64,000 nucleotides of DNA, from assembly GCF_026339875.1 (NCBI RefSeq), contig NZ_JAPEPZ010000001.1, forward strand, positions 7,998,001-8,062,000, given 5' to 3'. Position 1 is the stretch's first letter; every line of letters starts with the position of its first letter. Positions 21,022 to 41,963 of the stretch are shown here, in pieces. The stretch comes from Streptomyces sp. NBC_01571 (GTDB lineage Bacteria > Actinomycetota > Actinomycetes > Streptomycetales > Streptomycetaceae). A program made the translations under genes and the position numbers. The notes under the pieces are model-generated. The model was not told where the DNA came from. It worked only from the letters and a program-made list of their open reading frames with translations, and made no database searches.

Positions 21022-22842
21022 ATGCGTCGCCCTGTTGCGCGGAATCTGGCGGTCTTGGCGGTTTCGGCCGCGGTGGTCTCGGTCGGTGCGGCCGCGCCTC
21101 CCGGCGCCGGGAAGGCGACCGTGTCCGCCGTCGGCGGCGCGTCGCCGAAGGTGCCGGTCGCCGTCGGGTACGGCGGCGCCGTGGCGAGCGTCGACGCCGA
21201 CGCCTCCGCCGCGGGTATAGAGGTCCTCAGGAAGGGCGGCAACGCGGTGGACGCGGCGGTCGCCACGGCCGCGGCCCTCGGTGTCACCGAGCCCTACTCC
21301 TCCGGCGTGGGCGGAGGCGGCTACTTCGTCTACTACGACGCCAAGTCCCGTACGGTGCACACGATCGACGGCCGTGAGACGGCGCCGCTGAGCGCCGACT
21401 CGGGGCTGTTCCTGGAGAACGGCAAGCCGCTCGCCTTCGCGGACGCCGTCACCAGCGGACTGAGCGTCGGTACGCCGGGCACGCCCGCGACCTGGCAGAC
21501 GGCGCTGGACAGCTGGGGCAGCAGGCGGCTGAGCAGCGTCCTCAAGCCCGCGGAACGGATCGCGCGCGACGGCTTCACGGTCGACGCGACCTTCCGCTCC
21601 CAGACGGAGTCCAACGAGGCCCGCTTCAGGAACTTCCCGGACACCGCCAAGCTGTTCCTGCCCGGCGGCTCGCTCCCGGCGGTCGGCTCGACCTTCACCA
21701 ACCCCGACCTCGCCCGCACCTACGAGGAGTTGGGTCGCAAGGGCGTCGGCGCGATCTACCACGGCGACCTCGGCGAGGACATCGTCGCCACCGTGAACAA
21801 GCCGCCGGTGGAGACCGGTTCCGGCTACAACGCCCGGCCCGGAAAGCTGTCGCTCAGGGACCTGGCCGCCTACCGGGCGAAGAAGCAGGCGCCGACGGAG
21901 ACGGCGTACCGCGGCCGGAAGGTCTACACGATCGCGCCCTCCTCGTCCGGTGGCACGACGGTCGGCGAGGCCCTCAACATCCTGGAGCGGACCGACCTCT
22001 CCAAGGCGAGCGACGTGCAGTACCTGCACCACTACATCGAGGCCAGCCGGATCGCATTCGCCGACCGGGGGCGCTGGGTCGGCGACCCGGCCTTCGAGCA
22101 CGTACCCACGAAGGAACTGCTGTCGCAGAAGTACGCCGACTCCCGCGCGTGCCTCGTCAAGGACGACGCGGTGCTGACCAGTCCGCTCGCGCCGGGCGAC
22201 CCGCGCCACCCGGCGGCCTGCTCCACCGCGGGGACCGCCGCCCCGACGACGTACGAGGGTGAGAACACCACGCACCTCACGGTCGCCGACAAGTGGGGTG
22301 ACGTCGTCTCGTACACGCTGACCATCGAGCAGACCGGCGGCAGCGGCATCACCGTCCCGGGCCGCGGCTTCCTCCTCAACAACGAGTTGACGGACTTCTC
22401 CTTCACCCCGGCCAGTCCGGCCGTGCACGACCCGAACCTGCCCGGCCCCGGCAAGCGGCCGCGCTCGTCGATCTCGCCGACGATCGTGCTGGACCGGCAC
22501 GACCAGCCGGTGGTGGCGCTCGGTTCGCCGGGCGGCGCCACCATCATCACCACCGTGCTGCAGACGCTCACCGGATTCCTGGACCGCGGGCTGCCGCTCG
22601 TCGACGCGATCGCCGCGCCGCGGGCCAGCCAGCGCAACGCGGCACAGACGGAACTCGAACCGGGCCTGTACGACAGCGCGCTCAGGACCCGGCTGGAGGC
22701 GCTCGGACACTCCTTCAAGCCCAACCCCGAGATCGGCGCGGCGACGGGCGTCCAGCGCCTTCCGAACGGCAAGTGGCTGGCCGCGGCGGAGACGGTACGG
22801 CGCGGGGGCGGATCGGCGATGGTGGTGCGTCCCGCGTCCTAA
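21022..22842 (+). CDS. ggt: Gamma-glutamyltransferase (606 aa)
   Basis: A secreted Ntn-hydrolase that cleaves glutathione and other gamma-glutamyl compounds. The N-terminus is an export signal (NLAVLAVSAAVVSVGAAAPP). The autoprocessing site and nucleophile is T416 in ENTTHLTVAD; the substrate-binding GSPGGATI and RSSISPTIV motifs are present. The large-subunit start AAGIEVLRKGGNAVDAAVAT is typical. The ATG at 21022 is preceded by CTGGAGG. Its TAA stop is formed with the first base of MITE copy 2, which begins at 22842. Confidence 0.93.
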   Translation: MRRPVARNLAVLAVSAAVVSVGAAAPPGAGKATVSAVGGASPKVPVAVGYGGAVASVDADASAAGIEVLRKGGNAVDAAVATAAALGVTEPYSSGVGGGGYFVYYDAKSRTVHTIDGRETAPLSADSGLFLENGKPLAFADAVTSGLSVGTPGTPATWQTALDSWGSRRLSSVLKPAERIARDGFTVDATFRSQTESNEARFRNFPDTAKLFLPGGSLPAVGSTFTNPDLARTYEELGRKGVGAIYHGDLGEDIVATVNKPPVETGSGYNARPGKLSLRDLAAYRAKKQAPTETAYRGRKVYTIAPSSSGGTTVGEALNILERTDLSKASDVQYLHHYIEASRIAFADRGRWVGDPAFEHVPTKELLSQKYADSRACLVKDDAVLTSPLAPGDPRHPAACSTAGTAAPTTYEGENTTHLTVADKWGDVVSYTLTIEQTGGSGITVPGRGFLLNNELTDFSFTPASPAVHDPNLPGPGKRPRSSISPTIVLDRHDQPVVALGSPGGATIITTVLQTLTGFLDRGLPLVDAIAAPRASQRNAAQTELEPGLYDSALRTRLEALGHSFKPNPEIGAATGVQRLPNGKWLAAAETVRRGGGSAMVVRPAS

Positions 22843-23003
22843 GGGCTGTCCCGTGATCCCCGGCGGGCGCACGACGACAGCCACGGCACCTCGCCGCGTT
22901 GTCGGATCGCCCGAATACGCCCAGCATGAGGACGACCCTCCGCCTTGCGATGCACCGCATCCGACGCCGCGCGCTGATCCACCGGGGATTACGGGACAGC
23001 CCT
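22842..23003. mobile_element. MITE copy 2 (162 bp), flanked by TA
   Basis: Inverted termini AGGGCTGTCCCGTGATCCCC and its near-complement bound the element; TA dinucleotides lie on both sides (22840-22841 and 23004-23005), indicating a TA target duplication. It differs from copy 3 at only four positions. No coding capacity is evident. It sits directly on the ggt stop codon. Confidence 0.88.
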
Positions 23004-23058
23004 TAAGCGCCGCGGCAGGCCGACGGACGGATCGCGCGGCCCGGCCGGGCGTGAGCGG

Positions 23059-23088
23059 GTGAACGGCGCGGGACGCCGCGCCGTTCAC
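23059..23088 (-). terminator. Hairpin terminator after map
   Basis: GTGAACGGCGCG (23059-23070) and CGCGCCGTTCAC (23077-23088) form a perfect 12-bp stem with a 6-nt loop, 24 bp beyond the map stop. Confidence 0.7.
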
Positions 23089-23111
23089 GGCACGCTGGCG
23101 CGGGCCCGGTG

Positions 23112-23879
23112 TCAGCGCGCCGTCAGGACGCGGGGCCCCGAGTCCGTGATGGCCACCGTGTGCTCGGCGTGGGCCGCGCGGGAGCCGTCGTCCGTACGCA
23201 GGGTCCAGCCGTCGGGCGCCGCGTGGAAGCCGTCGGTGCCGCCGCCGATGAGCATGGGCTCGATGGCGAGGACCATGCCGTGGCGCAGCGGCAGGCCGCG
23301 GCCGGGACGCCCCTCGTTGGGAACGGGCGGGTCCTCGTGCATACGGCGGCCCACGCCGTGGCCGCCGAAGCCGTCCGGGATGCCGTACCCCGCCGCGCGG
23401 CAGACCGTGCCGACGGCGTGCGCGATGTCCCCGATGCGGTTGCCGACGACGGCCGCCGCGATGCCCGCCGCGAGGGCGCGGTCGGCGGTCTCGACCAGGC
23501 GGACGTCGGCGGCGCGCGGCCGGCCGACGACGAAGCTGATCGCCGAGTCGCCGACCCAGCCGCCCAGTTCGGCACCGAAGTCGATGGAGACCAGGTCTCC
23601 GTCGCGCAGCCGGTAGCCGGTGGGGATGCCGTGCACGATCGCGTCGTTCACGGAGGCGCAGATGACCGCGGGGAACGGGGTGGGTGCGAATGAGGGGCGG
23701 TAGCCGAGGAAGGGGGAGCCGGCGCCCGCGTCACGCAGTACCTGGTGGGCGACCTCGTCCAGCTCCAGCAGGGAGACGCCCACGGCGGCCGCTTCCCGCA
23801 CGGCCGTGAGCGCCCTGCCCACGACCTGTCCCGCCTCGTGCATCGCGTCGATCGATGTGTCCGTCTTGAGTTCCACCAT
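23112..23879 (-). CDS. map: Type I methionine aminopeptidase (255 aa)
   Basis: Removes the initiator Met from nascent proteins using a dinuclear metal site. All five ligands are visible: D100, D111, H174, E207 and E239 (SIDFG, GDSA, GGHGVG, IEPM, AEHTV). The N-terminal region lacks a zinc-finger extension, as in short actinobacterial forms. It is divergent from a small XRE gene with which it shares a 32-bp control region; its -10 (TATAGT) lies 7 nt before the ATG, so translation is probably leaderless. This is likely a secondary, XRE-controlled map rather than the secY-linked housekeeping one. Confidence 0.9.
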   Translation of the reverse strand: MVELKTDTSIDAMHEAGQVVGRALTAVREAAAVGVSLLELDEVAHQVLRDAGAGSPFLGYRPSFAPTPFPAVICASVNDAIVHGIPTGYRLRDGDLVSIDFGAELGGWVGDSAISFVVGRPRAADVRLVETADRALAAGIAAAVVGNRIGDIAHAVGTVCRAAGYGIPDGFGGHGVGRRMHEDPPVPNEGRPGRGLPLRHGMVLAIEPMLIGGGTDGFHAAPDGWTLRTDDGSRAAHAEHTVAITDSGPRVLTAR

Positions 23880-23911
23880 GCCAATTACTATACCGGTATT
23901 AGAATGGGCTC
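23880..23911. promoter_or_regulatory. Overlapping divergent leaderless promoters with palindrome
   Basis: The palindrome ATACCGGTAT (23890-23899) is flanked by TAGAAT (23900-23905), 6 nt before the xre ATG, and by ACTATA (23887-23892, TATAGT on the other strand), 7 nt before the map ATG. One bound regulator could cover both -10 boxes. Confidence 0.65.
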
Positions 23912-24184
23912 ATGGTGCGTACCCCGCTGACCCCCGAAGAGCGCGAACGCGGCGAGCGTCTCGGGCAGTTGCTGCGTGAGGCCCGCGGCGTCCGGAGCAT
24001 GGTGGAGGTCGCGGCGACCGCCGGGATCTCGGCCGAGACCCTGCGCAAGATCGAGACCGGCCGGGCTCCCACTCCCGCCTTCTTCACCGTGGCGGCGCTG
24101 GCGAGGGCGCTCGGGCTGTCCATGGACGACCTCGATCACCGGACTCCGCTCCCGGCCCGAAAACTCCCCGTAGCCGTTCCGTAA
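23912..24184 (+). CDS. XRE-family HTH regulator (90 aa)
   Basis: A compact single-domain protein: RLGQLLREARGVRSMVEVAA, GISAETLRKIETGRAPTPAF, AALARALGLSMDDL is a complete HTH_3 domain with the IETGR recognition-helix end. There is no ligand domain. Divergence from map and the shared palindrome make it the likely repressor of both genes (inference). The ATG is 6 nt from a -10 hexamer without a Shine-Dalgarno. Confidence 0.87.
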   Translation: MVRTPLTPEERERGERLGQLLREARGVRSMVEVAATAGISAETLRKIETGRAPTPAFFTVAALARALGLSMDDLDHRTPLPARKLPVAVP

Positions 24185-24240
24185 CACGGAGGGTGTTTTC
24201 TACCGGACCGGAGTACTCCAGTCGGGTGGGGGGTTGCGTG

Positions 24241-26196
24241 ATGGCTGTGGATCAACTCCCCGGCGAGGTGCGGGAGTTCGCGTGCTATCTGGACGGGCTG
24301 ATGCGGCGGCTCGACCAGGGCGGCGGCTGGTGCGGGGTGTTCTGGCAGCGTGACCCCGACGGAATGCGGGCCTGCCTGGACGGCTGGGAGGTGCCTCCCT
24401 GGGACGTGGTCGAGGCGCTCCTGCAGGACCTCGGCGCGGAGTACGGCGGCGGGGCCGCGGCGCAGGAGGCCCCGCGGGCCCGCTCGCTGCACGGCGCCTC
24501 GCTCGCCGCGTTCGACGCCCGGCCCGGCGGGCGCGACGCGCTCGGCGACCGTCTCGACGTGATGCTCCGCGAACAGCGCTACGCGGCGGAACGCCGGACC
24601 GAGCTGAACCGGCTGCTGGGGGAGGCCGCCACCCCGCAGGACGCCGACTCGGTCCGGCTGGACCTGGCCTGGGCCCGGGACGACCACGAGCGGGCCACGG
24701 CCCGCTGTGTCGAACTCCGCCACCGCATGGAAGACCTCGACCGGCGCGCCCTGCGTACCCACGCATCGGGCGCGCTCGGCTTTTCGGGGGCCGCCGGGGG
24801 CGTACCCCGGGCGTCGGACGGCGGTGAGCGCGGGAACCGCGCGGGCGAGACGTGGGCCGAGGGCGGATGGGCCGAGGCCACGGGGACCGCGCCCACGGGG
24901 ACCGCGCCCACGGGGACCGCGCCCACGGGGACCGCGCCCACGGGGACGGCGCCCACGGGGACGGCGGCCGGCCACCGTGCGGCCGTTCCCGGGCGGACGG
25001 GACGACGCTCGCCGTTCGCGGACCCCTCGGCGCCGGCTCGGCCCGAGACCGCCGATCCGGGCCCGTACGACCCGTCGGCTCCGGTGCCGGGCCCCGAATC
25101 CTTCACCCGCACCGGTCCCGGCGTGCCAGGCGCCTCGTCCGCTCCGAGCCGTCCTGCCGCTGCCGCGCCCGCCGGACCCGGTGGGCACGGCGACGCCTTC
25201 GGTCCTGGGGGTCACGGCGCCCGGGACGACGCGCGCGACGCCGGCCGGCCCGGGTCCGGTGAGGCCCTCGCGGAGGCCGGCGCCGCTGTGCGCGGGGACG
25301 GCCCCGGGCCCGGCGCTCCCGCTTCCGGCCCCGGGCACGACGGGTACGACCCCGGCTCCCGGCCGGAGGCCGCCTCCGGCGCCGTACGGCCCCACGACGG
25401 GCCCCCGACGCCGGGCTCGGGGTCCGCGGCCCCCGAGCCCGCCCCGGCCCCCAGACAGCGCTTCAGGCGCCGTCCCCGGGGAAGCGCGCGGTTCGCCGGG
25501 ATGATGGAGGCCGACGCGGCCCCCGTGCCCGCCCCCGGGACGCCCGCGCCGCTGCCCGCCGGCCCGGCCGCGCCGAACCGCCGTACGTCCCGCGGCGCGC
25601 GTTTCGCCGGGGCCGCAGAGGAGCGGGCGGAGCCACGGACGGAGCCCCGGGCGGAGCCCCTGGACGGGGACGCCCGGCGAGCCACCGTGGAAACCGTCCG
25701 GACACTGGTCCGACTGCGTGCCGAGGGCCGCAGTGGCGAGGCGCACGCCGCACTCGTCGAGGCCGCGTACTGGCCCGCCGCCCGCTTCCCCCTGCTCGCC
25801 GCCGAGTTGCACGACGCGGGCCTCGACGCGGACTGGGCCACCCTGCTGTGGGAGGCCGCCTCGCTCCCCGCGGACCGGCTGGTCGCCGCGTCCGACGCGC
25901 TCGTCGCGGCCGGCCGCACCACCGACGGACAGCAGATGCTGCGCCAGGGCGTCGGCCGCCCCGCACCGGAGATCGGGGCCGCCGTGCTCGGCCTCGCCGA
26001 CGAGGGCCGCAGCCGCGAGATCCGCGCACTGCTCGACGCCTATGTACGGGTCCGTGCCCCGGAGGAGGCCGCCCGCAGCGCGGAGAGCGATCCGGCGCGG
26101 CTCGTGCCGCTCCTGCTGGACGCCGCCCGGGGAATCTCGGAGGAACGCCACTGGGACCTGGTGCACGCCCTTCGGGTGGCGGGCTTCGCCGCCTGA
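24241..26196 (+). CDS. Large Ala/Pro/Gly-rich conserved actinobacterial protein (651 aa)
   Basis: Three parts are visible. Residues 1-165 form a charged helical region (VREFACYLDGLMRRLDQGGG, LDLAWARDDHERATARCVEL) with coiled-coil character. Residues about 190-450 are low-complexity Pro/Gly/Ala, including a TGTAP repeat encoded by six 15-bp units at 24880-24969. The last 170 residues are alpha-helical repeats (AHAALVEAAYWPAARFPLLA, LLWEAASLPADRLVAASDAL) resembling a scaffold. No enzymatic motif is seen. The ATG at 24241 (or GTG 24238) is chosen because the conserved part starts there. Confidence 0.6.
   Translation: MAVDQLPGEVREFACYLDGLMRRLDQGGGWCGVFWQRDPDGMRACLDGWEVPPWDVVEALLQDLGAEYGGGAAAQEAPRARSLHGASLAAFDARPGGRDALGDRLDVMLREQRYAAERRTELNRLLGEAATPQDADSVRLDLAWARDDHERATARCVELRHRMEDLDRRALRTHASGALGFSGAAGGVPRASDGGERGNRAGETWAEGGWAEATGTAPTGTAPTGTAPTGTAPTGTAPTGTAAGHRAAVPGRTGRRSPFADPSAPARPETADPGPYDPSAPVPGPESFTRTGPGVPGASSAPSRPAAAAPAGPGGHGDAFGPGGHGARDDARDAGRPGSGEALAEAGAAVRGDGPGPGAPASGPGHDGYDPGSRPEAASGAVRPHDGPPTPGSGSAAPEPAPAPRQRFRRRPRGSARFAGMMEADAAPVPAPGTPAPLPAGPAAPNRRTSRGARFAGAAEERAEPRTEPRAEPLDGDARRATVETVRTLVRLRAEGRSGEAHAALVEAAYWPAARFPLLAAELHDAGLDADWATLLWEAASLPADRLVAASDALVAAGRTTDGQQMLRQGVGRPAPEIGAAVLGLADEGRSREIRALLDAYVRVRAPEEAARSAESDPARLVPLLLDAARGISEERHWDLVHALRVAGFAA
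24880..24969 (+). repeat. Six tandem 15-bp units in coding sequence
   Basis: ACGGGGACCGCGCCC is repeated four times exactly and twice with small changes, encoding TGTAP. Because 15 is a multiple of 3, copy-number changes would keep the frame. Confidence 0.9.
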
Positions 26197-26282
26197 GTCA
26201 CCCGGGCGGCCCACAGCCCGGTCAGCCTCTCACCCGCAGGGGTGTGAAACGTGATCGACTCAGCGGGTTAACCCCGATGGTC

Positions 26283-26349
26283 TTGGCAAGGCTGTCCAGG
26301 GGGCTTACTTTCGAGCCTCTACCGCCTTTGTCTACGGGCGTAGAGGCTC
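26283..26349 (+). promoter_or_regulatory. Promoter and operator of the pyrimidine/hydantoin cluster
   Basis: TTGGCA (26283-26288) and TACTTT (26306-26311) are spaced by 17 bp, a good vegetative-type promoter. The predicted start point falls in a perfect inverted repeat GAGCCTCTAC (26313-26322) / GTAGAGGCTC (26340-26349). A protein bound there, or the hairpin in the RNA leader, could control the operon. Confidence 0.6.
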
Positions 26350-26376
26350 TCTGACGTCCCGTCGAAGGAGCAGCTC

Positions 26377-27219
26377 ATGGCCAACGTCGTACGCGCCGCT
26401 CTGGTCCAGGCGACCTGGACCGGCGACACCGCATCCATGGTCGCCAAGCACGAGGAGCACGCCCGCGAGGCGGCCCGGCAGGGCGCGAAGGTGATCGGCT
26501 TCCAGGAAGTCTTCAACGCCCCCTACTTCTGCCAGGTCCAGGAGCCCGAGCACTACCGCTGGGCGGAGCCCGTGCCCGACGGGCCCACGGTGACCCGCAT
26601 GCGGGAACTCGCCCGCGAGACCGGCATGGTCATCGTCGTGCCCGTCTTCGAGGTCGAGCAGTCCGGCTTCTACTTCAACACCGCGGCCGTGATCGACGCC
26701 GACGGCACCTTCCTCGGCAAGTACCGCAAGCACCACATCCCCCAGGTCAAGGGCTTCTGGGAGAAGTACTACTTCAAACCGGGCAACCTCGGCTGGCCCG
26801 TCTTCGACACCGCGGTCGGCCGGATCGGGGTCTACATCTGCTACGACCGCCACTTCCCCGAGGGCTGGCGCCAACTCGGCCTCAACGGCGCCCAGCTCGT
26901 CTACAACCCCTCCGCCACCTCCCGCGGTCTCTCCGCCTACCTCTGGCAGCTGGAGCAGCCCGCCGCGGCCGTCGCCAACGAGTACTTCATCGCCGCGATC
27001 AACCGGGTCGGGCAGGAGGAGTACGGGGACAACGACTTCTACGGCACCTCGTACTTCGTCGACCCGCGGGGGCAGTTCGTGGGGGAGACCGCCGGCGACA
27101 AGGCCGAGGAACTCGTGGTCCGGGACCTCGACTTCGACCTGATCGAGGAGGTGCGTCAGCAGTGGGCGTTCTACCGCGACCGCCGGCCCGACGCGTACGA
27201 GGGGCTGGTGCAGCCGTGA
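26377..27219 (+). CDS. Nitrilase-fold amidohydrolase, probable beta-ureidopropionase, copy 1 (280 aa)
   Basis: Carries the nitrilase triad E44 (GFQEVFNAPYF), K118 (GKYRKHHIPQ) and C155 (VYICYDRHFPEG). In the reductive pyrimidine pathway this family hydrolyses N-carbamoyl-beta-alanine to beta-alanine, CO2 and ammonia. It heads the cluster behind a clear promoter/operator, with GAAGGAG before the ATG, and overlaps the aminotransferase start by GTGA. A paralogue of identical length lies at 30231; the division of labour between them is not evident. Confidence 0.85.
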   Translation: MANVVRAALVQATWTGDTASMVAKHEEHAREAARQGAKVIGFQEVFNAPYFCQVQEPEHYRWAEPVPDGPTVTRMRELARETGMVIVVPVFEVEQSGFYFNTAAVIDADGTFLGKYRKHHIPQVKGFWEKYYFKPGNLGWPVFDTAVGRIGVYICYDRHFPEGWRQLGLNGAQLVYNPSATSRGLSAYLWQLEQPAAAVANEYFIAAINRVGQEEYGDNDFYGTSYFVDPRGQFVGETAGDKAEELVVRDLDFDLIEEVRQQWAFYRDRRPDAYEGLVQP

Positions 27220-28499
27220 GCGACCTGTACGCACGGCACAAGGCGGTCCTGCCCGACTGGCTCGCCCTCTACTACCAGGACCCGCTGGAGATCACCCACG
27301 GCGAGGGCCGCCACGTCTGGGACGCCGACGGCAACAAGTACCTGGACTTCTTCGGCGGCATCCTGACGACGATGACCGCGCACGCGCTGCCCGAGGTGAC
27401 CAAGGCCGTCAGTGAGCAGGCCGGGCGGATCATCCACTCCTCCACGCTCTACCTCAACCGGCCGATGGTCGAACTCGCCGAGCGCATCGTCCAGTTGTCC
27501 GGCATCCCGGACGCCCGCGTCTTCTTCACCACCTCCGGCACCGAGGCCAACGACACGGCGCTGCTGCTCGCCACCGCCCACCGGCGCAGCAACCAGATCC
27601 TGGCGATGCGCAACAGCTACCACGGCCGCTCGTTCAGCGCGGTCGGCATCACCGGCAACAAGGGCTGGTCGCCGACCTCGCTCTCCCCGCTGCAGACGCT
27701 GTACGTCCACGGCGGTGTCCGCACCCGCGGTCCCTACGCCGGCCTGTCCGACACCGAGTTCATCTCGGCCTGCGTCGAGGACCTCAGGGACCTGCTCGGC
27801 CATGTCCGGCCGCCCGCGGCCCTGATCGCCGAACCCGTCCAGGGCGTCGGCGGCTTCACGATCCCGCCCGACGGCCTCTACGCGGCCTTCCGCGAGGTCC
27901 TCGACGAGCACGGCATCCTCTGGATCGCCGACGAGGTGCAGACCGGCTGGGGGCGCACCGGCGAGCACTTCTGGGGCTGGCAGGCCCACGACGCCGCGGG
28001 CCCGCCGGACATGCTGACCTTCGCCAAGGGCATCGGCAACGGCATGTCCATCGGCGGCGTCGTCGCCCGAGCCGAGATCATGAACTGCCTGGACTCGAAC
28101 TCCATCTCGACCTTCGGCGGCTCACCGGTCACGATGGCGGCGGGGCTGGCGAACCTCACCTACCTCCTCGAACACGACCTCCAGGGCAACGCCCGGCGCG
28201 TCGGCGGTCTGCTCATCGAGCGGCTGCGGGCGATCGCCGCACAGGTCGACGGCGTACGCGAGGTCCGCGGTCGCGGGCTGATGATCGGCGTCGAACTGGT
28301 GAAGCCCGGCACCGACGAGGCGCATCCCGAGGGCGCCGCCGCCGTGCTCGAAGCGGCCCGCGAGGAAGGCCTGCTGATCGGCAAGGGCGGCGGTCACGAC
28401 ACCAGCGTGCTGCGCATCGCGCCGCCACTGTCCCTCACCGTCGCGGAGGCGGAGGAGGGTGCGGCGATCCTCGATCGCGCGCTGAGGTGCACCCGGTAA
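27216..28499 (+). CDS. Class III PLP-dependent aminotransferase (427 aa)
   Basis: The class-III fold is clear: SGTEANDTALLLATAHRRSN, NSYHGRSFSAVG, the Asp that holds the PLP ring nitrogen (WIADEVQTGWGRTG) and the Schiff-base Lys (LTFAKGIGNGMSIGG). In this setting it would transaminate beta-alanine or beta-aminoisobutyrate released by the upstream amidohydrolase, giving a semialdehyde (inference from context). The GTG start overlaps the preceding stop (GTGA). Confidence 0.87.
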   Translation: MSDLYARHKAVLPDWLALYYQDPLEITHGEGRHVWDADGNKYLDFFGGILTTMTAHALPEVTKAVSEQAGRIIHSSTLYLNRPMVELAERIVQLSGIPDARVFFTTSGTEANDTALLLATAHRRSNQILAMRNSYHGRSFSAVGITGNKGWSPTSLSPLQTLYVHGGVRTRGPYAGLSDTEFISACVEDLRDLLGHVRPPAALIAEPVQGVGGFTIPPDGLYAAFREVLDEHGILWIADEVQTGWGRTGEHFWGWQAHDAAGPPDMLTFAKGIGNGMSIGGVVARAEIMNCLDSNSISTFGGSPVTMAAGLANLTYLLEHDLQGNARRVGGLLIERLRAIAAQVDGVREVRGRGLMIGVELVKPGTDEAHPEGAAAVLEAAREEGLLIGKGGGHDTSVLRIAPPLSLTVAEAEEGAAILDRALRCTR

Positions 28500-28525
28500 G
28501 AGAACCTGAGCAAGGGAACGTCGCC

Positions 28526-30085: not shown

Positions 30086-30125
30086 AACACCGGATGACTC
30101 AGGTGAAACATGCGACGACGCGGGG

Positions 30126-33849: not shown

Positions 33850-35376
33850 ATGATCGAGCCCGTCCCCACCGACAGCCCACCGGCCGCCCAGGTCACGCTC
33901 CCCGACGGCCGGGTGGAGATCGCCCCCGACGCTACGGCTCCCACCGGTCCCTACGCCAACGAGGACCTGCTGCCGGTCCCGGTCGCCAGACGGACCTGGA
34001 CCACGTACAACTTCTCGGCGCTCTGGGTCGGCATGGCCCACAACACCGCCTCCTGGACCCTGGCATCCGGTCTGATAGCCGTGGGCATGGACTGGAAACA
34101 GGCCGTGTTCACCATCGCGCTGGCCAACCTGATCGTGCTGGTCCCGATGCTGCTCACCGGGCACGCGGGACCCAAGTACGGCATCCCCTTCCCGGTCTTC
34201 GCCCGCGCCTCCTTCGGGGTCCGCGGCGCCAACCTCCCTGCCGTGGTGCGGGCGTTGGTGGCCTGTGGGTGGTTCGGCATCCAGACCTGGATCGGCGGCG
34301 AGGCGATCTACTTCCTCGCCGGGAAGCTCTTCGGCGACAGCTGGGCGAACGCCTCGCACCTCGGCGGCTACGCCTGGACGATGTGGGTGTCCTTCGCGAT
34401 CTTCTGGGTGCTCCAGGTCGCGATCATCTACCGGGGCATGGAGACGATCCGCCGCTTCGAGAACTGGGCGGCGCCCTTCGTGCTCGTCGGCGCCGGGGTC
34501 ATGCTGTGGTGGATGAGCAGCAAGGCGGGCGGCTTCGGCCCGTTGCTCGACCAGCCCTCCAAGCTCGGCTGGGGCGGCGCCTTCTGGAAACTGTTCTGGC
34601 CGTCGCTCATGGGCATGATCGGCTTCTGGTCCACCCTGTCGCTGAACATCCCCGACTTCACCCGCTACGGCAGGAGCCAGAAGGCGCAGACCTGGGGCCA
34701 GGCGCTCGGCCTGCCCACCACGATGACGCTCTTCGCCTTCCTGTCCGTCATGGTCACCTCGGGATCGCAGGCCGTGTACGGCGAGGCGATCTGGGACCCG
34801 GTCAAGCTGGCGGCCAAGACGGACAACGTCGCCGGCATCGTCTTCGCGCTGGTCACCGTGCTGGTCGCGACCCTGTCCGTGAACATCGCGGCCAACCTGG
34901 TCTCCCCGGCCTTCGACTTCTCCAACATCGCGCCCAGGAGGATCAGTTTCCGGGCCGGCGCCATGACCACCTGCGTCCTCGGTGTGCTGATCTTCCCCTG
35001 GAAGCTGTACTCCGACCCGCAGGGCTACATCTTCACCTGGCTCGGCCTGGTCGGCGGTCTGCTCGGCACGGTCGCCGGCATCCTGATCGCCGACTACTGG
35101 ATCCTGCGCCGCACCCGGCTCGACCTCACCGACCTGTACCGCACCGGCGGACGCTACTGGTACGCCGGCGGCTGGAACTGGCGGGCCGTCGTCGCCTTCG
35201 TCACCGGCGGTGTCCTGGCCGTCGGCGGCGCCGACCTCCACCCGCTGATCGACGGGCGCCCGATCCCGGCGCTGTCGTCGCTCGCCGACTACGGCTGGGC
35301 GGTGGGTCTGGGGACGTCGCTGGTGCTCTACACCGGTCTGATGCTGCTGCGGGGCCGGCCGGAGGCCGCCGCCTGA
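33850..35376 (+). CDS. NCS1-family nucleobase/hydantoin:cation symporter (508 aa)
   Basis: A 12-helix transporter with the NCS1 hallmarks: the TM1 loop LWVGMAHNTASWTLASGLIA, the cation-site region of TM8 and the strongly conserved NIPDFTRYGRSQKAQTWGQA. Members import uracil, allantoin, hydantoins or cytosine. Its position at the end of the cluster makes it the uptake system for the ring substrate degraded by the upstream enzymes (inference). Confidence 0.9.
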   Translation: MIEPVPTDSPPAAQVTLPDGRVEIAPDATAPTGPYANEDLLPVPVARRTWTTYNFSALWVGMAHNTASWTLASGLIAVGMDWKQAVFTIALANLIVLVPMLLTGHAGPKYGIPFPVFARASFGVRGANLPAVVRALVACGWFGIQTWIGGEAIYFLAGKLFGDSWANASHLGGYAWTMWVSFAIFWVLQVAIIYRGMETIRRFENWAAPFVLVGAGVMLWWMSSKAGGFGPLLDQPSKLGWGGAFWKLFWPSLMGMIGFWSTLSLNIPDFTRYGRSQKAQTWGQALGLPTTMTLFAFLSVMVTSGSQAVYGEAIWDPVKLAAKTDNVAGIVFALVTVLVATLSVNIAANLVSPAFDFSNIAPRRISFRAGAMTTCVLGVLIFPWKLYSDPQGYIFTWLGLVGGLLGTVAGILIADYWILRRTRLDLTDLYRTGGRYWYAGGWNWRAVVAFVTGGVLAVGGADLHPLIDGRPIPALSSLADYGWAVGLGTSLVLYTGLMLLRGRPEAAA

Positions 35377-35401
35377 ACCACGGCCGCGCGAGGGAGGACG
35401 G

Positions 35402-36073
35402 TCAGCTCTTCCGGCCGTTCTCCAGCGTGGCCACCACTTCCTTCGCGGCCTTGATGGCGCCCTTGTTGATCTCGTCGGTGCTGGGCGCCTTCTTCGTCTC
35501 GAAGTCGCTTCCGTTGTAGGTGACGGCCACCAGCGCGTTGGACACGCGGGCGATCACCACACCCTCGCGGGTCTGCTGCTTGTCCTCGGTGGTGAGGTTC
35601 ACGACGGAGTAGCCCCCGTCGCCGAGGCCGGGCACCGTGCCCCCGCCGCTCTTCTTCGTCACACGCTCCTGGTAGGACTTCTGCGCCGCCGCGTCCGAGC
35701 TCATGATCTCGTAGGACACGTCGAGCCAGCGGTAGTCGAACCCCTTGAGCGCGTTCCAGGAGCAGGTGCGGCGTACGGACCTGTCGGTCGAGGCGATCTC
35801 CTGGCCGGCCGTCTTGGTGCCCGGGACCAGAGACGTGATCGTCTTGGTCGTGACGCTGGTGCACGGCGCGGGCGCGGCCGTGTACGTCTTCGCGACCGCC
35901 GTCGTCGACGGCTGGGTGGGGCTCTGGGTGTCCTGGGCCGACTTGTGCTCGGCCCCGGTCGGAGTCGTGGGCGACGAGGACGAACCGGACGACATGACCC
36001 AGCCCGTGCAGGCGAGCACGGCGACCGGCAGCAGGCGCGCGGTGAGGGCGAGCGGCAGAGGAAGAGAACGCAC
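35402..36073 (-). CDS. Predicted lipoprotein, DUF3558-like (223 aa)
   Basis: From the GTG at 36073: basic start, hydrophobic core (LPLALTARLLPVAVLAC) with a lipobox VLAC, then a Ser/Thr/Pro-rich linker and a compact beta domain with two cysteines (APCTSVTTK and RRTCSWN). The arrangement resembles DUF3558 lipoproteins of actinobacteria, whose role is unknown. A longer frame opens upstream at 36136, but it would bury the signal peptide. Convergent with the NCS1 gene. Confidence 0.65.
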   Translation of the reverse strand: MRSLPLPLALTARLLPVAVLACTGWVMSSGSSSSPTTPTGAEHKSAQDTQSPTQPSTTAVAKTYTAAPAPCTSVTTKTITSLVPGTKTAGQEIASTDRSVRRTCSWNALKGFDYRWLDVSYEIMSSDAAAQKSYQERVTKKSGGGTVPGLGDGGYSVVNLTTEDKQQTREGVVIARVSNALVAVTYNGSDFETKKAPSTDEINKGAIKAAKEVVATLENGRKS

Positions 36074-36194
36074 GGCGCACTTCTCGTGGGGGACGGTGCG
36101 GAGGAGTCCGCACTGCGGACGGGACGACAGTGTCACATGACTCTCTGTGGGGCGGAAGGGCGAACTCGTTCCGTGCCTGTGCGGTGACTGTGGT

Positions 36195-37028
36195 TCACGG
36201 CCGGACGCCAGGGCTCCACTTCGCCGTCACCCGCCACACCGCCGCCCGCAGTCGCACGCCACGATCCGTCTCATAAGGGCGCAAAGTGTCCTCCAGGATC
36301 TTGCGAGTGGCCATGTCGACCACCCGTCCGGGCGTACGCGAGAGGACGAAGCCGACGGCGTCGGCCGCGTCCCGCCCCCACACCGTCTCCGTGCCGACCG
36401 GCGTCACACTCACCTCATCCCATCCGTCCAGCACCTCGCGGATGTGCGCCGGGTCGGACAGGGAGGCCATCGCGGTCTGCGCCGCTACGGTGTGGCTGTC
36501 CGGCGCGTCGAGGAACTTCGCGAAGAGACTCAGGGCGCGCGACTCCTCCAGATGCGGGCCGGCCGGCTGCGGGCAGACGAACGCGAGGCGCCCTCCCGGT
36601 CGCAACGCCCGTGCCAGGTTCCGGAACGCGGCCGCGTGGTCGGCGAAGAACATCACCCCGCCCCGGCTGATCACCACGTCGTATCCGGCGGCCGGGAAGC
36701 GGTGGGTCTGGGCGTCGCCGAGTTCGTACGCGACGTTGGTGACGCCCTCCGCGGCGGTGGCCGCCCGCGCCCGGTCCAGCAGCGGCGCCGAGATGTCGAC
36801 GCCGACGGCATGCCCGTGCGCGGCCAGCCGGCCCGCGGTCCTGGTCGTCGCCCCGGCCCCGCAGCCGACGTCCAGGACACGGTCGCCCGCGGCGATCGCG
36901 GCACCCTCGAAGAGCGCGTCGTCGAGACCCGACACCAGGGCGTCGTAGCGGGCGTGGTGGGTGGCCCAGTGGCTGCCGAGAGGCCCGTTCCACACCTGCG
37001 CCTGCACGGAGTTGGCGATCCGCGTCAT
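36195..37028 (-). CDS. Class I SAM-dependent methyltransferase (277 aa)
   Basis: The SAM-binding motif I is VLDVGCGAGATT, with the motif-I acidic loop in VGVDISAPLLDRA and motif III in RALRPGGRLAFV. The substrate domain is small, as in type 11/25 methyltransferases. The ATG at 37028 overlaps the stop of the upstream AhpD-like gene (ATGA), so the two are co-translated. The methyl acceptor is unknown. Confidence 0.85.
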   Translation of the reverse strand: MTRIANSVQAQVWNGPLGSHWATHHARYDALVSGLDDALFEGAAIAAGDRVLDVGCGAGATTRTAGRLAAHGHAVGVDISAPLLDRARAATAAEGVTNVAYELGDAQTHRFPAAGYDVVISRGGVMFFADHAAAFRNLARALRPGGRLAFVCPQPAGPHLEESRALSLFAKFLDAPDSHTVAAQTAMASLSDPAHIREVLDGWDEVSVTPVGTETVWGRDAADAVGFVLSRTPGRVVDMATRKILEDTLRPYETDRGVRLRAAVWRVTAKWSPGVRP

Positions 37029-38050
37029 GAGGCCTCCCTCGCCGTGCGCACGGGCAGCGCGCTCTCGATCCGGTCCACGGCGGCGAACGCGCCGTACGCG
37101 ACAAGTCGCACCAGACAGGCGTCGGTCCGGTCGGGGGTGCGCCACGCCGCCACGTCCTCCTCCGTGATCCGGTACGGCGCGAGCGCGGCCAGCAGCGCCA
37201 GGCGAGCCCCGGGGCGGCCACGGCCGGGAATCCCGTCCCACGCGAGCGGCGGATGGGCGCCGTCCCAGGCGCCGAGCGTCTCCCGTACGAGGGTCCGGTC
37301 GGCGGCGTCGAGAAGTCCCCCGCCCTCGCCGGCCGCGGCGCGCAGCGCGGCGTAGGCGGGGCCGACGGTGGTCGCGCCCGCCCAGTCCGGGCCGGGACCC
37401 GCGTGGTCGAGGAGGGGCAGACCGGCACCGTCGAGGAGGGTCAGACCCGCGCCCGGGGCGGGGTGGCGGCGCACCGTCCGGGACAGGGACCGGCCGCCCA
37501 GGCTCCGTACGGCCCGGAACCGCTGGACGTTGCCCGGCAGCAACTGCTCGGTCAGCAGCGCCGACACCACACGGTTGATGAAGTGGAAGGCGAGGGCGGT
37601 GCCGATGTACGCGGGGGCGTGCGCGGCGGGGAAGGGGTACGGAGTCAGCTCCGGTGCCCCGGGGATCCGGGTCGCCCTGCCCCACGCCAGCACCTGCGCC
37701 TGCTGCTCGTCGGCGGGCGTCTCACCACGGGCCACCCTCTCCGCGAGCGCGTGGTCGCCGGTCGCGTGCAGCAGCATCCGGTGCGCGTCCACGCAGAACG
37801 GGCACCGATTGGCCTCCGACACCCCGAGCGCCGCGAGTTCCTTCCCGGTCCTGCCGCCGTCGCCCGCGATCAGCGACTCACGCATCAGCGCCCAGGCGGA
37901 GGCCATGATCCCGGGCGTGGAGGACAGCACGACGAAGGTGGACGCCCGCGTGATGCCGAAGTCCCTGGCGAGCTGGGAGTAGACGGCGCGGACGGGCCCG
38001 ACGGCGGTCGCGGGCTCGGGTGGAGTGGTGTGGCGGTAGGGACTGGACAC
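37025..38050 (-). CDS. AhpD-like / carboxymuconolactone decarboxylase family protein (341 aa)
   Basis: The N-terminal half carries the AhpD redox motif R-C83-P-F-C86-V-D-A-H90, expected to act as a peroxidase or disulfide reductase. The C-terminal half (residues about 150-341) is an extra helical region not found in short AhpD proteins. The GTG at 38050 has GGGAGG upstream. It heads a two-gene operon with the methyltransferase and is divergent from a two-component system that probably regulates it (inference). Confidence 0.78.
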   Translation of the reverse strand: MSSPYRHTTPPEPATAVGPVRAVYSQLARDFGITRASTFVVLSSTPGIMASAWALMRESLIAGDGGRTGKELAALGVSEANRCPFCVDAHRMLLHATGDHALAERVARGETPADEQQAQVLAWGRATRIPGAPELTPYPFPAAHAPAYIGTALAFHFINRVVSALLTEQLLPGNVQRFRAVRSLGGRSLSRTVRRHPAPGAGLTLLDGAGLPLLDHAGPGPDWAGATTVGPAYAALRAAAGEGGGLLDAADRTLVRETLGAWDGAHPPLAWDGIPGRGRPGARLALLAALAPYRITEEDVAAWRTPDRTDACLVRLVAYGAFAAVDRIESALPVRTAREAS

Positions 38051-38265
38051 GGGGTTCGCCTCCCGGTGGGTGAGGTGCGGTGCGCCGACGGCCACCGACA
38101 GGGCAACCCTGGTCCACAGGGGGGTGCGCGGGCGTCGTACGGCCGAAGGCACTCCGGGCTACCCCAGTCGGTCCGGGCGCGGCCCGGCCTACTCCGCCAG
38201 GAGTAGTCCGCGCGCCCTCCACAGGTCTGACGCGACCGGCCGAACAGCCGTCTATCGTGCGGGAC
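38051..38265. promoter_or_regulatory. Divergent promoter region, leaderless -10 for the kinase gene
   Basis: TATCGT (38253-38258) lies 7 nt before the kinase ATG with no Shine-Dalgarno, suggesting a leaderless kinase mRNA. The 215-bp gap must also carry the promoter of the leftward operon; no clear operator repeat was found. Confidence 0.4.
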
Positions 38266-39378
38266 ATGACGCTGGACCGGGCCACGCGCCGACAGCTCGC
38301 CGACACCGCCCTCGCGCTCGTCGTCGGCGCCCTCGTCATGACCGCGGCCGCCTTCGACGACGGCACCGCCCCCGCCGACTACGCCCTCATGGCCCTCGCC
38401 TCCCTGGCCCTCGCGGCCTACCGCCGGGCACCGCGCGAGGTCCTCGCGATCAGTACGGTCACCACGACGGCGTACGTACTGCACGCACACCCCGGGCCCC
38501 TCGCCGCCCTGCCCGTCCTGGGCGCCGTCCACACGGCCGCGCGCGCCGGCCACCGAGGCGTGGCCGCGCTCGCGAGTGCCGTGTTCCTGGCCGGCTTCGT
38601 CGCGACGGGCCCCACCCGGCAGGAGATCGTCGAACGAACCCTCCTGCTGGCGGGCTGGTTCCTGTGCGCCCTGGTGACGGGCCTCGCCGACCGCAACTGG
38701 CAGGCGTATCTGCGCCAGACCGAACAGCGCGCGCTGGAGGCGGAACGCACCCGCGAGGAGGCCGCCCTGCGCCGGGCGGGCGAGGAACGGCTGCGGATCG
38801 CACGTGAGTTGCACGACTCGCTCACCCACAGCATCTCGATCGTCAAACTCCAGGCCGGAGTCGCCGTCCACCTCGCCCGAAAACGCGGCGAGGAGGTACC
38901 GCCCGCGCTGCTCGCCATCCAGGCGGCGGGCGGCGAGGCGATGCGCGAACTGCGCGCCACGCTCGAGGTGTTGCGCACCGACGAGCCGACCGGCACCCCC
39001 GCGCTGCTCGTGGAGCGGGCCCGCGCCGCGGGGCTCGCCGTCGAGCTGTCGGTCAGCGGCGACGAACGACCGCTGACGGCGACGGTGGACCGCACCGCCT
39101 ACCGCATCGTCCAGGAGGCGCTGACCAACGCCGCGCGCCACGCGGGCCCGGCCGAGGTGACCGTCCGGCTCGACTACTCGGCGGCCGAGCTGGCGATCTC
39201 CGTGGACGACGACGGCGGCGCCGACCCGTCCCGCCCGCCCGAGCCCGGTATCGGTCTCACCGGCATGCGGGAACGCGTCACGGCGCTCGGCGGCACCCTG
39301 CGTGCCGCCCCACGCGTCGGGGGCGGCTTCTCCGTCCACGCCCAACTGCCCCTGGGAACACCGGAGGACGTGTCGTGA
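38266..39378 (+). CDS. NarL-type sensor histidine kinase (370 aa)
   Basis: Four to five N-terminal membrane helices (residues about 12-140) are followed by a HisKA_3 domain with phospho-accepting H183 (RIARELHDSLTHSISIVKLQ) and an HATPase domain with the N box (VQEALTNAARHAG) and G box (GIGLTGMRERV). It phosphorylates the downstream regulator, which it overlaps by GTGA. The signal is unknown; the absence of a large extracellular domain suggests intramembrane sensing (inference). Confidence 0.9.
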   Translation: MTLDRATRRQLADTALALVVGALVMTAAAFDDGTAPADYALMALASLALAAYRRAPREVLAISTVTTTAYVLHAHPGPLAALPVLGAVHTAARAGHRGVAALASAVFLAGFVATGPTRQEIVERTLLLAGWFLCALVTGLADRNWQAYLRQTEQRALEAERTREEAALRRAGEERLRIARELHDSLTHSISIVKLQAGVAVHLARKRGEEVPPALLAIQAAGGEAMRELRATLEVLRTDEPTGTPALLVERARAAGLAVELSVSGDERPLTATVDRTAYRIVQEALTNAARHAGPAEVTVRLDYSAAELAISVDDDGGADPSRPPEPGIGLTGMRERVTALGGTLRAAPRVGGGFSVHAQLPLGTPEDVS

Positions 39379-40055
39379 TCAGGGTCGCGCTCGTCGACGA
39401 CCAGGCCCTGATGCGCGCCGGATTCCGCGCCCTGCTGGACGCCGAGGACGACATCGAGGTGGTGGGCGAGGCCGCCGACGGGCAGCAGGGGCTCGCGCTG
39501 GTGCGCGCCCGGCGGCCGGACGTCGCCCTCGTCGACGTGCAGATGCCGGTGATGTCGGGCATCGAGGCGACCCGGCGGATCGCCGCCGACCCGCAACTGT
39601 CCGCCGTACGCGTCCTCATCCTCACCAACTACGGCCTGGACGAGTACGTCTTCGAGGCACTGCGGGCCGGGGCGAGCGGTTTCCTGCTCAAGGACACCGA
39701 GCCCGCCGACCTCCTCCAGGCCATCGAGGTCGTCGCACACGGAGAGGCGCTGCTGTCCCCGTCCGTGACCCGCACGCTGATCGGCGAGTTCGTGTCCCGT
39801 CCCCCGGACCGGGCCACCGCGCCGGGCCTGGAGTGCCTCACCCGCCGCGAACGCGAGGTCACCGCGCTCGCCGCGCGCGGCCTCAGCAACGAGGAGATCG
39901 CCGCGCACATGGTCATCAGCCCGTTCACGGCCAAGACGCACATCAGCCGCGCCATGACCAAGCTGGGCGCCCGCGACCGGGCCCAACTGGTCGTGTTCGC
40001 CTACGAGTCGGGGCTGGTGACGGCCAGAGGCGGCACCCAGTGGGGCGTGCGATGA
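39375..40055 (+). CDS. NarL/LuxR-type response regulator (226 aa)
   Basis: The receiver domain has the acidic pocket (LVDDQ), the phospho-acceptor D54 in ALVDVQMP and the conserved Lys in GFLLKDTEP. The C-terminal LuxR helix-turn-helix is LTRREREVTALAARGLSNEE followed by FTAKTHISRAMTKLG. It is the partner of the kinase at 38266, with translational coupling. Likely targets are the divergent AhpD-like operon and its own promoter (inference). Confidence 0.92.
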   Translation: MIRVALVDDQALMRAGFRALLDAEDDIEVVGEAADGQQGLALVRARRPDVALVDVQMPVMSGIEATRRIAADPQLSAVRVLILTNYGLDEYVFEALRAGASGFLLKDTEPADLLQAIEVVAHGEALLSPSVTRTLIGEFVSRPPDRATAPGLECLTRREREVTALAARGLSNEEIAAHMVISPFTAKTHISRAMTKLGARDRAQLVVFAYESGLVTARGGTQWGVR

Positions 40056-40062
40056 TCGGCGG

Positions 40063-40641
40063 ATGACCGTGCCGTGCCCGGGACCGCCGTGCCCGAGACC
40101 TCTTCGTAGCGCCGTCCTCGCCGGTGCGCTGGCGCTCGCCGTGAGCGGCTGCGGCTTCTTCACCGAGCCGGACCACAGACCCGCGCCCGCCCCCTCGCCC
40201 GCCGTCGCGGTCCCGCCGGCCGTCGACTGCCCGCCCGCCGGAGTACGCGTCGACGCCGGCCGTGTCGACGGGGCCATGGGACTGCGGGCGATGACCCTCA
40301 CCCTCACCAACTGTTCCGAGCGGCCGTACCGGGTGGACGGCTACCCCTCCGTCCGTGTCCTCGACGAGAAGGGCACCCCGCTCACCGGCGTGCGCACCGT
40401 CCGGGGCACCGACAAGGTCCCCATGGCCCCGGAGGACCCCGGGGCCGAGCCGTTCACCCTGGACCCGGGCGAGAGCGCGCAGGCGGCCCTGTACTGGCGG
40501 ATGGCGGCCGAGAACGGTACGTACCTCCGGGTCGTCCCGCAGAAGGGACGCGCCGCGGTGAACGTACGGCCACCGGAGACCCTGGACATCGGACCCGAGA
40601 ACACGCTCGGCACCACGGCGTGGGCGGCGTCGCCGTCCTGA
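40063..40641 (+). CDS. DUF4232 lipoprotein (192 aa)
   Basis: Signal peptide with lipobox A-V-S-G-C30, then a Pro/Ala linker and a beta-sandwich typical of DUF4232 (GAMGLRAMTLTLTNCSERPY, VDGYPSVRVLDEKGTPL, AALYWRMA). Two cysteines (VDCPP, TNCSE) could form a disulfide. Such lipoproteins are abundant in Streptomyces and of unknown function. It lies 7 bp after the response regulator and may be co-transcribed. Confidence 0.82.
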   Translation: MTVPCPGPPCPRPLRSAVLAGALALAVSGCGFFTEPDHRPAPAPSPAVAVPPAVDCPPAGVRVDAGRVDGAMGLRAMTLTLTNCSERPYRVDGYPSVRVLDEKGTPLTGVRTVRGTDKVPMAPEDPGAEPFTLDPGESAQAALYWRMAAENGTYLRVVPQKGRAAVNVRPPETLDIGPENTLGTTAWAASPS

Positions 40642-40737
40642 CAGCTTCCCGTCCGGCAGTTCCAGTTCCTGACAGCTCCTGGTCCGGCCGACTTCCGGTC
40701 CGCCGGCTCCCGGTCCGGCCACGGGACCCTGTTCCCA

Positions 40738-40899
40738 AGGGCTGTCCCGTGATCCCCGGCGGGCGCACGACGACAGCTACGGCACCTCGCCGCGTTGTCG
40801 GATCGCCCGAATACGCCCAGTATGAGGACGACCCTCCGCCTTGCGATGCACCGCATCTGACGCCGCGCGCTGATCCACCGGGGATCACGGGACAGCCCT
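40738..40899. mobile_element. MITE copy 3 (162 bp)
   Basis: Perfect 22-bp terminal inverted repeats (AGGGCTGTCCCGTGATCCCC plus GG). The flanks are CA on the left and TA on the right (40900-40901). It is 97-98% identical to copy 2. The right end supplies the last base of the lplA stop codon. Confidence 0.9.
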
Positions 40900-41963
40900 T
40901 AGGGCACCCGGGCCGTCCACTCGGCCGACCCGAACTTCGAGCGCGCCAGCTCCTCGGCGCGGGCCAGTTCCGCGGGTGTCACCCCGCCGTCCGTGAGCCC
41001 GTAGCGGCCGCGGAAGGAGTCGATCATCCGCCCGATGACCTGCTCGCGGGCGAGCCCCGTCTGCCGGCGCAGCGGATCCACCCGCTTCTTCGCGCTCCTG
41101 GTGCCCTTGTCGGAGAGCTTCTCCCGGCCGATACGCAGCACTTCGAGCATCTTGTCGGCGTCGATGTCGTACGACATGGTCACGTGGTGGAGCACGGCAC
41201 CGGCGCCGCCGCCCGGACCGACCACCCGCTTCTGGGCGGCTCCCGCGATCTTCCCCTGCTCCGTCGCGATGTCGTTCAAGGGCTGGTACCAGGCCCTGAT
41301 CCCCATGTCCCCGAGCGCGCCGAGCACCCAGTCGTCGAGATAGGCGTAGCTGTCCTGGAACGACAGGCCCTGGACGAGCGCCTCCGGCACCGAGAGTGAG
41401 TAGGTGATGGTGTTGCCCGGCTCCACGAACATCGCCCCGCCACCGGAGATCCGGCGCACCACCTCGATGCCGTGGCGCGCGGCACCCTCGGGGTCGACCT
41501 CGTTGCGCAGCGACTGGAAGCTGCCGATGATCACGGAGGGGGCACCCCACTCCCACACGCGCAGCGTCGGCGGGCGGCGGCCCGCGGCGACCTCCGCGGT
41601 CAGCACCTCGTCCAGGGCCATGTGCAGCGCGGGGGACTGCGGCCCCTCGTGGATCAGCTGCCAGTCGTAGTCCGTCCAGTCGGTGGCGTGCGCGAGCGCC
41701 CTGCGCACCGCGATCCCGATGCCTTCCGAGGTCAGGCCGTACATGACCGTGCCCACGGGCAGCGCGGCGTCGACACGGGCCGCCAGGCCCGCCGCGTCGG
41801 TGTCGGCGGGAGCGCCGTCCAGCGCGTGGTTCACGGCGTCCAGCGCCTCGTCCGGTTCGAGGAAGAAATCGCCCGCCACGCGCGCGTGGCGCAGCTCCCC
41901 GTCCTCGACGTCCAGGTCCACCACGACGAGCTTGCCGCCGGGGATCTTGTACTCACCGTGCAC
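40899..41963 (-). CDS. lplA: Lipoate-protein ligase A with N-terminal accessory domain (354 aa)
   Basis: Attaches free lipoate to the E2/GcvH lipoyl domains. The N-terminal 85 residues resemble the small accessory domain known as LplB or the Lip_prot_lig C-domain (GGKLVVVDLDVEDGELRHAR, GDFFLEPDEALDAVNHAL), here placed before rather than after the catalytic domain. The ligase core has RRISGGGAMFVEPGNTITYS and the Lys region KIAGAAQKRVV. The GTG at 41963 follows GGAGG. The stop codon is completed by MITE copy 3. Confidence 0.87.
   Translation of the reverse strand: MHGEYKIPGGKLVVVDLDVEDGELRHARVAGDFFLEPDEALDAVNHALDGAPADTDAAGLAARVDAALPVGTVMYGLTSEGIGIAVRRALAHATDWTDYDWQLIHEGPQSPALHMALDEVLTAEVAAGRRPPTLRVWEWGAPSVIIGSFQSLRNEVDPEGAARHGIEVVRRISGGGAMFVEPGNTITYSLSVPEALVQGLSFQDSYAYLDDWVLGALGDMGIRAWYQPLNDIATEQGKIAGAAQKRVVGPGGGAGAVLHHVTMSYDIDADKMLEVLRIGREKLSDKGTRSAKKRVDPLRRQTGLAREQVIGRMIDSFRGRYGLTDGGVTPAELARAEELARSKFGSAEWTARVP

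Follow-up and report, generated by a model that had tools for sequence, protein, structure and literature searches.

A CTAG-inserting miniature element of Streptomyces that often sits in stop codons, rebuilds them and holds a conserved hairpin core

How can a mobile element lie in the last codon of a gene and leave the gene with a proper end? The question is raised twice within a stretch of 64,000 nucleotides of Streptomyces sp. NBC_01571 (contig NZ_JAPEPZ010000001.1, positions 7,998,001 to 8,062,000; hereafter the window), which holds three copies of a 162-bp repeat described here as a miniature inverted-repeat transposable element (MITE). Copies 2 and 3, which differ at four of the 162 positions (41, 84, 121 and 149), lie exactly on the stop codons of the genes ggt and lplA, respectively, as a reading made without database searches (the sequence-only reading) had claimed and as the coordinates confirm (Table 1). 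At ggt, the TA of the TAA stop belongs to the target and the last A is the first base of the element; at lplA, read on the minus strand, the last base of the TAA stop is the complement of the terminal T of the element. In both genes the element thus sits in the stop codon and rebuilds it. The third copy (copy 1) is decayed, with 86% identity over a 169-nt repeat, and no called gene was found beside it in its 3.2-kb locus. A chance match is excluded for the repeat, which gives 57 BLAST matches in the 11.54-Mb genome (15 contigs), including cases where the two ends of one copy match each other; the 30 best matches cover 130 to 162 of the 162 positions. The element ends are 22-bp inverted repeats beginning AGGGCTGTCCCGT.

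The aligned junctions read CTA/AGGG...CCCT/TAG and the target is therefore CTAG, of which the TA is duplicated. Of the 163 elements in the main cluster of a larger, core-bearing set (see below), 112 have CTA as left flank and 122 have TAG as right flank. The sequence-only reading had proposed a TA target with a 2-bp duplication, which is borne out, the junctions and the empty sites extending the target to CTAG. For the empty sites, queries made by joining the two flanks of a filled site, ten in number, were run against 31 genomes, and 20 stretches were fetched together with two further loci. At seven filled sites, 22 sequences of relatives were alignable across the gene end, and the element is absent from all 22 loci (no BLAST match longer than 19 nt). 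In 21 of the 22, a stop codon is present at the same aligned column (14 TAG, 7 TGA), while in the remaining one, at ggt, the stop follows one codon later. E.g., the five empty lplA sites carry TAG four times and TGA once, and the six empty ggt sites carry TAG four times, TGA once and the later stop once. The stop thus predates the insertion and the protein length is unchanged, in line with the earlier idea of insertion into existing stops; the comparison with empty-site orthologues of ggt, lplA and the other sites gave nothing that speaks against that idea. Caution is needed for site L019, whose flanks lie far apart in relative G013, a rearrangement being possible there too.

The rebuilt stop is also retained. 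We read the three bases running from flank to element at both ends of 146 elements, judging the gene end from the reconstructed empty site. On the gene side, all 59 triplets are stops (52 TAA, 7 TGA; 56 copies, three with genes at both ends), compared to 42 of 53 at the other end of those copies (Fisher p 1.5e-4) and 145 of 180 at the junctions of copies that are not at stops (p 2e-5). Where the TA has changed, TGA occurs seven times and CAA never on the gene side, versus 17 and 25 times elsewhere (p 0.004). The rebuilt stop is under purifying selection, a protection of the junction that these counts show statistically.

Copies abut stop codons more often than CTAG sites do. In the genome of the window, 18 of 28 copies exactly abut a called stop, versus 26 of the 101 CTAG sites that 560 kb of it contain; for 13 other genomes, sampled as 20-kb loci, the counts are 18 of 41 versus 17 of 88; and in a third sample of named loci they are 23 of 77, among the matches listed, versus 19 of 126. 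The pooled Mantel-Haenszel odds ratio for stops is 3.2 (p 1.7e-7) compared to all CTAG sites and 2.6 (p 2.3e-5) compared to CTAG outside genes. The enrichment at stops for which the sequence-only reading had called is thus present over random CTAG sites. The gene calls come from a purpose-written finder based on codon usage. The elements of the first sample stem from one BLAST search of the window's genome, where the end search recognised 28 of the 30 longest copies; a reading of these 30 loci counts 19 that adjoin a stop, and an earlier null set, made with another training of the gene finder, has 22 stops in 95 CTAG sites. The second sample consists of best hits in other genomes. Two low-score calls (L308 17688 and L329 5930; 6 mismatches) were removed from it, reducing 43 elements to 41; the Mantel-Haenszel tests were run without them, while the Fisher tests of this sample still include both. 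The third sample (77 elements from 120 loci) comes from a pattern scan needing one intact TAA end, with copies less than 700 bp from a locus edge left out; a stricter earlier pass gave 22 of 72 at stops, likewise among the matches listed. In loci with remnants or weak matches, the surviving end lies at a called stop in at least three of 12 (L031, L033, L034).

Several explanations compete for this excess. The pattern might be a passive one, for which the choice of CTAG and the removal of gene-internal insertions suffice and stops confer nothing extra. Indeed, CTAG sites are often stops themselves, as the three control sets above show, and elements within called genes number 0 of 146 versus 48 of 315 CTAG sites (p 4e-9); loss from genes is therefore one part of the stop excess. 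However, the excess of stops is 2.7-fold when measured against divergent gaps (p 9e-4) and 2.3-fold against co-directional ones (p 0.002). Intergenic elements show no shortage in divergent gaps (0.93, p 0.46), and loss from promoters therefore fails to explain the rest and was dropped as a cause. Because of these two results, we have lowered the passive explanation from an even chance to a real but lesser possibility. An excess of about two-fold remains after the CTAG target and the loss from genes, and it may reflect either a longer survival of copies on which a gene depends or a preference of the transposase. Such a preference, for gene 3' ends or for the surroundings of stops beyond CTAG, would suit the excess over all intergenic classes. 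It would equally suit the elements that serve two convergent genes at once, one per end, which make up 7 of 191 elements (one stop-less element being counted twice) versus 3 of 410 CTAG sites with a shared stop (those at element junctions included; p 0.014). Yet survival accounts for the same data, and we consider target choice rather unlikely. The sequence-only reading had seen in cost-free insertion at gene ends a possible reason for the distribution of the element. Its part on the preservation of the stop holds; as the cause of the excess it is no more than a possibility, part of the excess being due to CTAG and to the absence from genes, and the interpretation as a whole is partly supported.

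The more surprising part lies beyond what that reading had claimed, namely a conserved, covarying core placed between many different ends. The 117-bp middle part of the element (positions 23-139) occurs in other genomes between quite different ends. In the loci examined we counted 237 core-bearing elements, of which 219 have clear inverted ends. Clustering these ends at 72% identity gives 19 groups, some of which represent mis-set ends, and the real end types number at least ten. The commonest length is 159-166 bp and the flanks are mostly CTA and TAG. Nearly all core-bearing elements have A or G as terminal base, and the rebuilt stop is therefore TAA or TAG. Across 16 representatives, mean identity is 0.82 for the core (inner part) and 0.41 for the ends (first 16 bases). 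In a tree of 79 cores, for which 35 main-type cores were picked among the non-redundant ones and in which 44 of the 67 inner branches are unresolved, the end types cluster (16 changes, compared to a minimum of 10 and to 41.6 when shuffled); ends and core would therefore mostly have been inherited together. A hybrid is found at L161 (5495-5656), with one end of each of two types, one core and flanks CTA and TAG. Elements with other ends likewise abut stops, 23 of 45 versus 14 of 51 CTAG sites (p 0.015), the 45 including L021, L030 and L088, which resemble decayed main-type copies and of which L021 is also in the first sample. The core of some copies (L140, L143, L145, L177, L191, L357) is interrupted by a GC-rich insert of roughly 30-60 nt, hairpin-like in several cases (TCCCCCAAGCTCTTCGAGCAGGGGGGACCCCCA in L140).

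The core is predicted to fold as one long hairpin on the strand complementary to that of the ggt copy. An alignment of 41 of the 51 non-redundant cores, the ten left out being mostly the lowest-scoring, gives 36 predicted pairs, 19 of them with compensatory change. With all 51 cores the same kind of fold is obtained (33 pairs, 94 of 1,676 cells unpaired). Paired cells amount to 95.1%, a share reached by none of 500 shuffles (89.6%), and changes on both sides occur in 70 cells compared to 16.4 in shuffles, while slid versions of the fold pair in 28-54%. The consensus fold of all 51 cores has -39.0 kcal/mol on the hairpin strand and -4.5 on the other. We take the hairpin as real, and the core may act as a folded RNA or single strand. 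Membership of a known RNA family was rejected, since no Rfam covariance model matches the window at gathering score and none matches 22800-23050 at E up to 1.

A covarying hairpin might also arise without selection for the fold. During replication, one arm may be corrected to match the other (quasipalindrome correction), an established source of mutations that would, in addition, hold the two terminal repeats similar to each other as they evolve. Such correction should, however, remove G-U and A-C alike, and on the hairpin strand we count 268 G-U versus 24 A-C cells. Seven predicted pairs have G-U as their commonest state, and since a predicted fold itself favours G-U, the six opposed columns of symmetric loops were read too, where A-C is the commonest state in none of the six. 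The marked difference in folding between the two strands also argues against such a process. On its side, the bias is weaker at pairs that are mostly Watson-Crick (68 versus 23 cells; by pair 14 versus 6, p 0.12), and the terminal repeats lean the same way, if less strongly (103 versus 58). Correction of this kind retains an appreciable chance of being right, though well short of an even one. A different proposal is that the hairpin has been domesticated as a 3'-end signal, i.e., a bidirectional terminator or an mRNA 3' stabiliser, and retained at gene ends. Both strands do form more stable folds than shuffled sequences (z -8.0 and -9.9), but no T-run follows the hairpin in copies 2 and 3 of the window and convergent gaps hold 15 of 146 elements versus 28 of 315 CTAG sites. 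Moreover, a link between core orientation and host gene direction was tested and found random (28 versus 34, leaving out 6 elements that had no core hit), and the element is missing from every one of the relatives' sequences at the seven sites, which makes such a signal improbable. A bolder reading is that the core is selfish, a folded RNA (or folded single strand) that would have switched among several IS5-type transposases as it acquired or evolved new matching ends. Each of these ends starts with a purine, which would keep a landing in a stop codon silent, and the fold rather than the ends would be the conserved unit. This reading is tentative, and we regard it as doubtful.

As to the transposase, full-length elements of 1.2-1.5 kb with the same ends and with flanks CTA and TAG occur at L147, L186 and L214 (among the 120 end-bearing loci listed). 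The domain scan was made with the L186 protein, encoded in one open frame, and matched DDE_Tnp_1 (PF01609), DDE_Tnp_4 (PF13359) and HTH_Tnp_4 (PF13613) above the Pfam cut-offs; DDE_3 gave no match in these scans. A relative of 1,511 bp with the same ends, flanked by CCA and TAG, is present in the window's own genome (L396), the further relatives in that genome being pieces. Seven other apparent long elements (L130, L135, L152, L169, L171, L229 and L248) were discarded, since each turned out to be a MITE, or a stretch next to a MITE, in which an end matches by chance. The MITE thus shares its terminal inverted repeats with a full-length element coding for an IS5-type transposase, and its short TA duplication at the preferred target CTAG is as for an IS5-family MITE. 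These shared ends point to a mobilisation in trans by IS5-type transposases. The core was sought in L147, L186 and L214 without a match. Between the two families that the sequence-only reading had left open, the partner transposase favours IS5. A MITE of the IS630/Tc1-mariner group would agree with the TA duplication and the CTAG-like target, yet the transposase gene found between such ends is of the IS5 type and DDE_3 is not hit; this origin was rejected as highly improbable. At L109 (1202-2355), the window's genome contains a DUF4096 insertion sequence with ends GGCCGGTTCGTTTGGATCAC, which resemble one other end type. It lies itself at a called stop and is a candidate full-length partner of that end type.

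In this study, we propose that a non-autonomous MITE would be moved in trans by IS5-type transposases; it inserts at CTAG with duplication of TA, as seen at the junctions and the empty sites. Its terminal A (G in sister families) ends at the junction, in TAA (or TAG), any frame with TA at codon positions 1-2. TA plus the terminal purine gives a stop, so insertion into a TAG or TAA stop does not alter the protein, also where two convergent genes have their stops in one CTAG. Gene-internal insertions would be removed by selection, given their absence. The further stop excess most likely arises because a gene that needs the terminal base of the element shields that end from decay and deletion, so that stop-sited copies would survive longer. 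The core is a conserved long hairpin in elements with at least ten end sequences, with a putative role as RNA or single strand. Taken as a whole, from the mobilisation by IS5-type transposases through insertion at CTAG, silent landing in stops and protected junction to the conserved core, we hold this explanation to be very probable. A number of points weigh against it. The L186 protein scores 117.2 bits with the NCBIfam IS5 model NF033581, below the curated cut-off of 140, and L186 alone has an open transposase frame, with L214 and L396 frameshifted and L147 having only the second half in one frame. The gene finder is home-made, and the pattern scan behind the named loci presupposes one intact TAA end. 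Three of the 59 stop copies (L333, L141, L148) create a stop that is missing from the reconstructed site, for a strict count of 56 of 146. Two further results also suit a passive origin of the pattern: the excess of stops over convergent gaps is 1.9-fold and not significant (p 0.07), and in 20-kb loci picked by the RNA covariance model there is no excess, with stops at 5 of 14 other-end and 0 of 2 main-end elements versus 14 of 51 CTAG sites.

The element is widespread. With the genome of the window counted in, 113 of 150 genomes in the genus have a match (E up to 0.001). The covariance model of the core, run against 119 genomes of the order, matches 93, including 7 from outside the genus. Matches occur in 51 plasmid records, all from Streptomyces. 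A phage collection of 50,697 records gave no match, and phages were rejected as a vehicle; the end sequence does occur in six IMG/VR contigs, one of which (L253) also holds the core and one element end. An end sequence in a contig labelled Bacillus sp. MCCB 382 (L142) may represent contamination or a chance match. At L366, a pair of element copies lies about 1 kb apart.

Table 1. Coordinates in the window of the element copies, their parts and the two host genes.
Feature	Position	Strand	Remark
MITE copy 2, 162 bp	22842..23003	.	TA on both sides (22840-22841, 23004-23005)
Left TA of target duplication	22840..22841	.	with base 22842 forms the ggt stop TAA
Right TA of target duplication	23004..23005	.	
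Left terminal inverted repeat AGGGCTGTCCCGTGATCCCCGG	22842..22863	+	
Right terminal inverted repeat	22982..23003	-	
Conserved structured core of copy 2, 115 nt	22865..22979	-	minus strand is the predicted covarying hairpin with G-U pairs
MITE copy 3, 162 bp	40738..40899	.	left flank CA, right flank TA
Conserved structured core of copy 3	40761..40875	-	
MITE copy 1	5257..5416	.	decayed ends, TA duplication no longer recognisable
ggt, gamma-glutamyltranspeptidase gene	21022..22842	+	Pfam G_glu_transpept; stop TAA at 22840-22842, final base from the element
lplA, lipoate-protein ligase gene	40899..42029	-	Pfam LplA-B_cat; stop TAA at 40899-40901, completed by the element

The window contains other repeats. 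Two 155-nt stretches (1525-1679 and 9332-9486) are 88% alike and readable as short lysine-rich frames, which we take to be CsbD-like. A direct repeat of 103 nt (3064-3166 and 3633-3735; 99% alike) has a spacing of 569 bp. The open reading frame 24193-26196 contains a 15-bp tandem repeat ACGGGGACCGCGCCC (24835-24969), and a 7-bp tandem repeat GCGGGAT lies at 384-474.

The element may be compared with several known systems. REP/REPIN sequences have a RAYT (Y1) partner and are not known to duplicate their target, and no REPs are known that have terminal repeats with TA duplication. Here TA is duplicated and the partner found is of the DDE type (no search for RAYT genes was made), and membership of this class was rejected. 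The likeness consists of hairpins near gene 3' ends; according to PMC12306157, REPs at most 15 nt from a stop are said to stall ribosomes, and where REP hairpins lie near stops, the hairpin of this element begins inside the stop codon. IS5 itself has the target YTAR, most often CTAG, and is reported to duplicate 4 bp (PMC5493358). The present element shares the CTAG target with the IS5 family and its ends with full-length elements encoding IS5-type transposases, but it duplicates 2 bp, and its core, common to many end types, has no match in the IS5-type partners. RUP of pneumococcus, like other bacterial MITEs of less than 200 bp, is short, non-coding and has TA at its ends, as is the case here, and it is thought to be moved in trans by an insertion sequence (PMC2229807). 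RUP is tied to IS630-Spn1, and the sections available of that paper make no mention of stop rebuilding. Type A SMRs of Haloquadratum measure about 110 bp and, like this element, are short, with inverted ends, many copies and a target preference; in contrast, they have no target duplication and type A prefers other mobile elements as targets (PMC3119063). For ISLxc2/ISLxx4 (ISLxc2 belonging to the IS481 family), a CTAG target is linked to a stop codon as well (PMC2516522), yet there the element's own gene stops in the target, whereas here the stop of the host gene lies in the element. Our searches of the open-licence literature turned up neither an account of this element nor one of a bacterial MITE that restores a stop codon, and the accessible part of PMC4681348 yielded nothing on this element.

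In summary, the element offers a case at base resolution in which the target of a transposon and its terminal base together make an insertion into the last codon of a gene silent. The host gene comes to depend on a single base of the transposon. At the same time, the conserved core raises the question why a non-coding element keeps its fold while its ends change.

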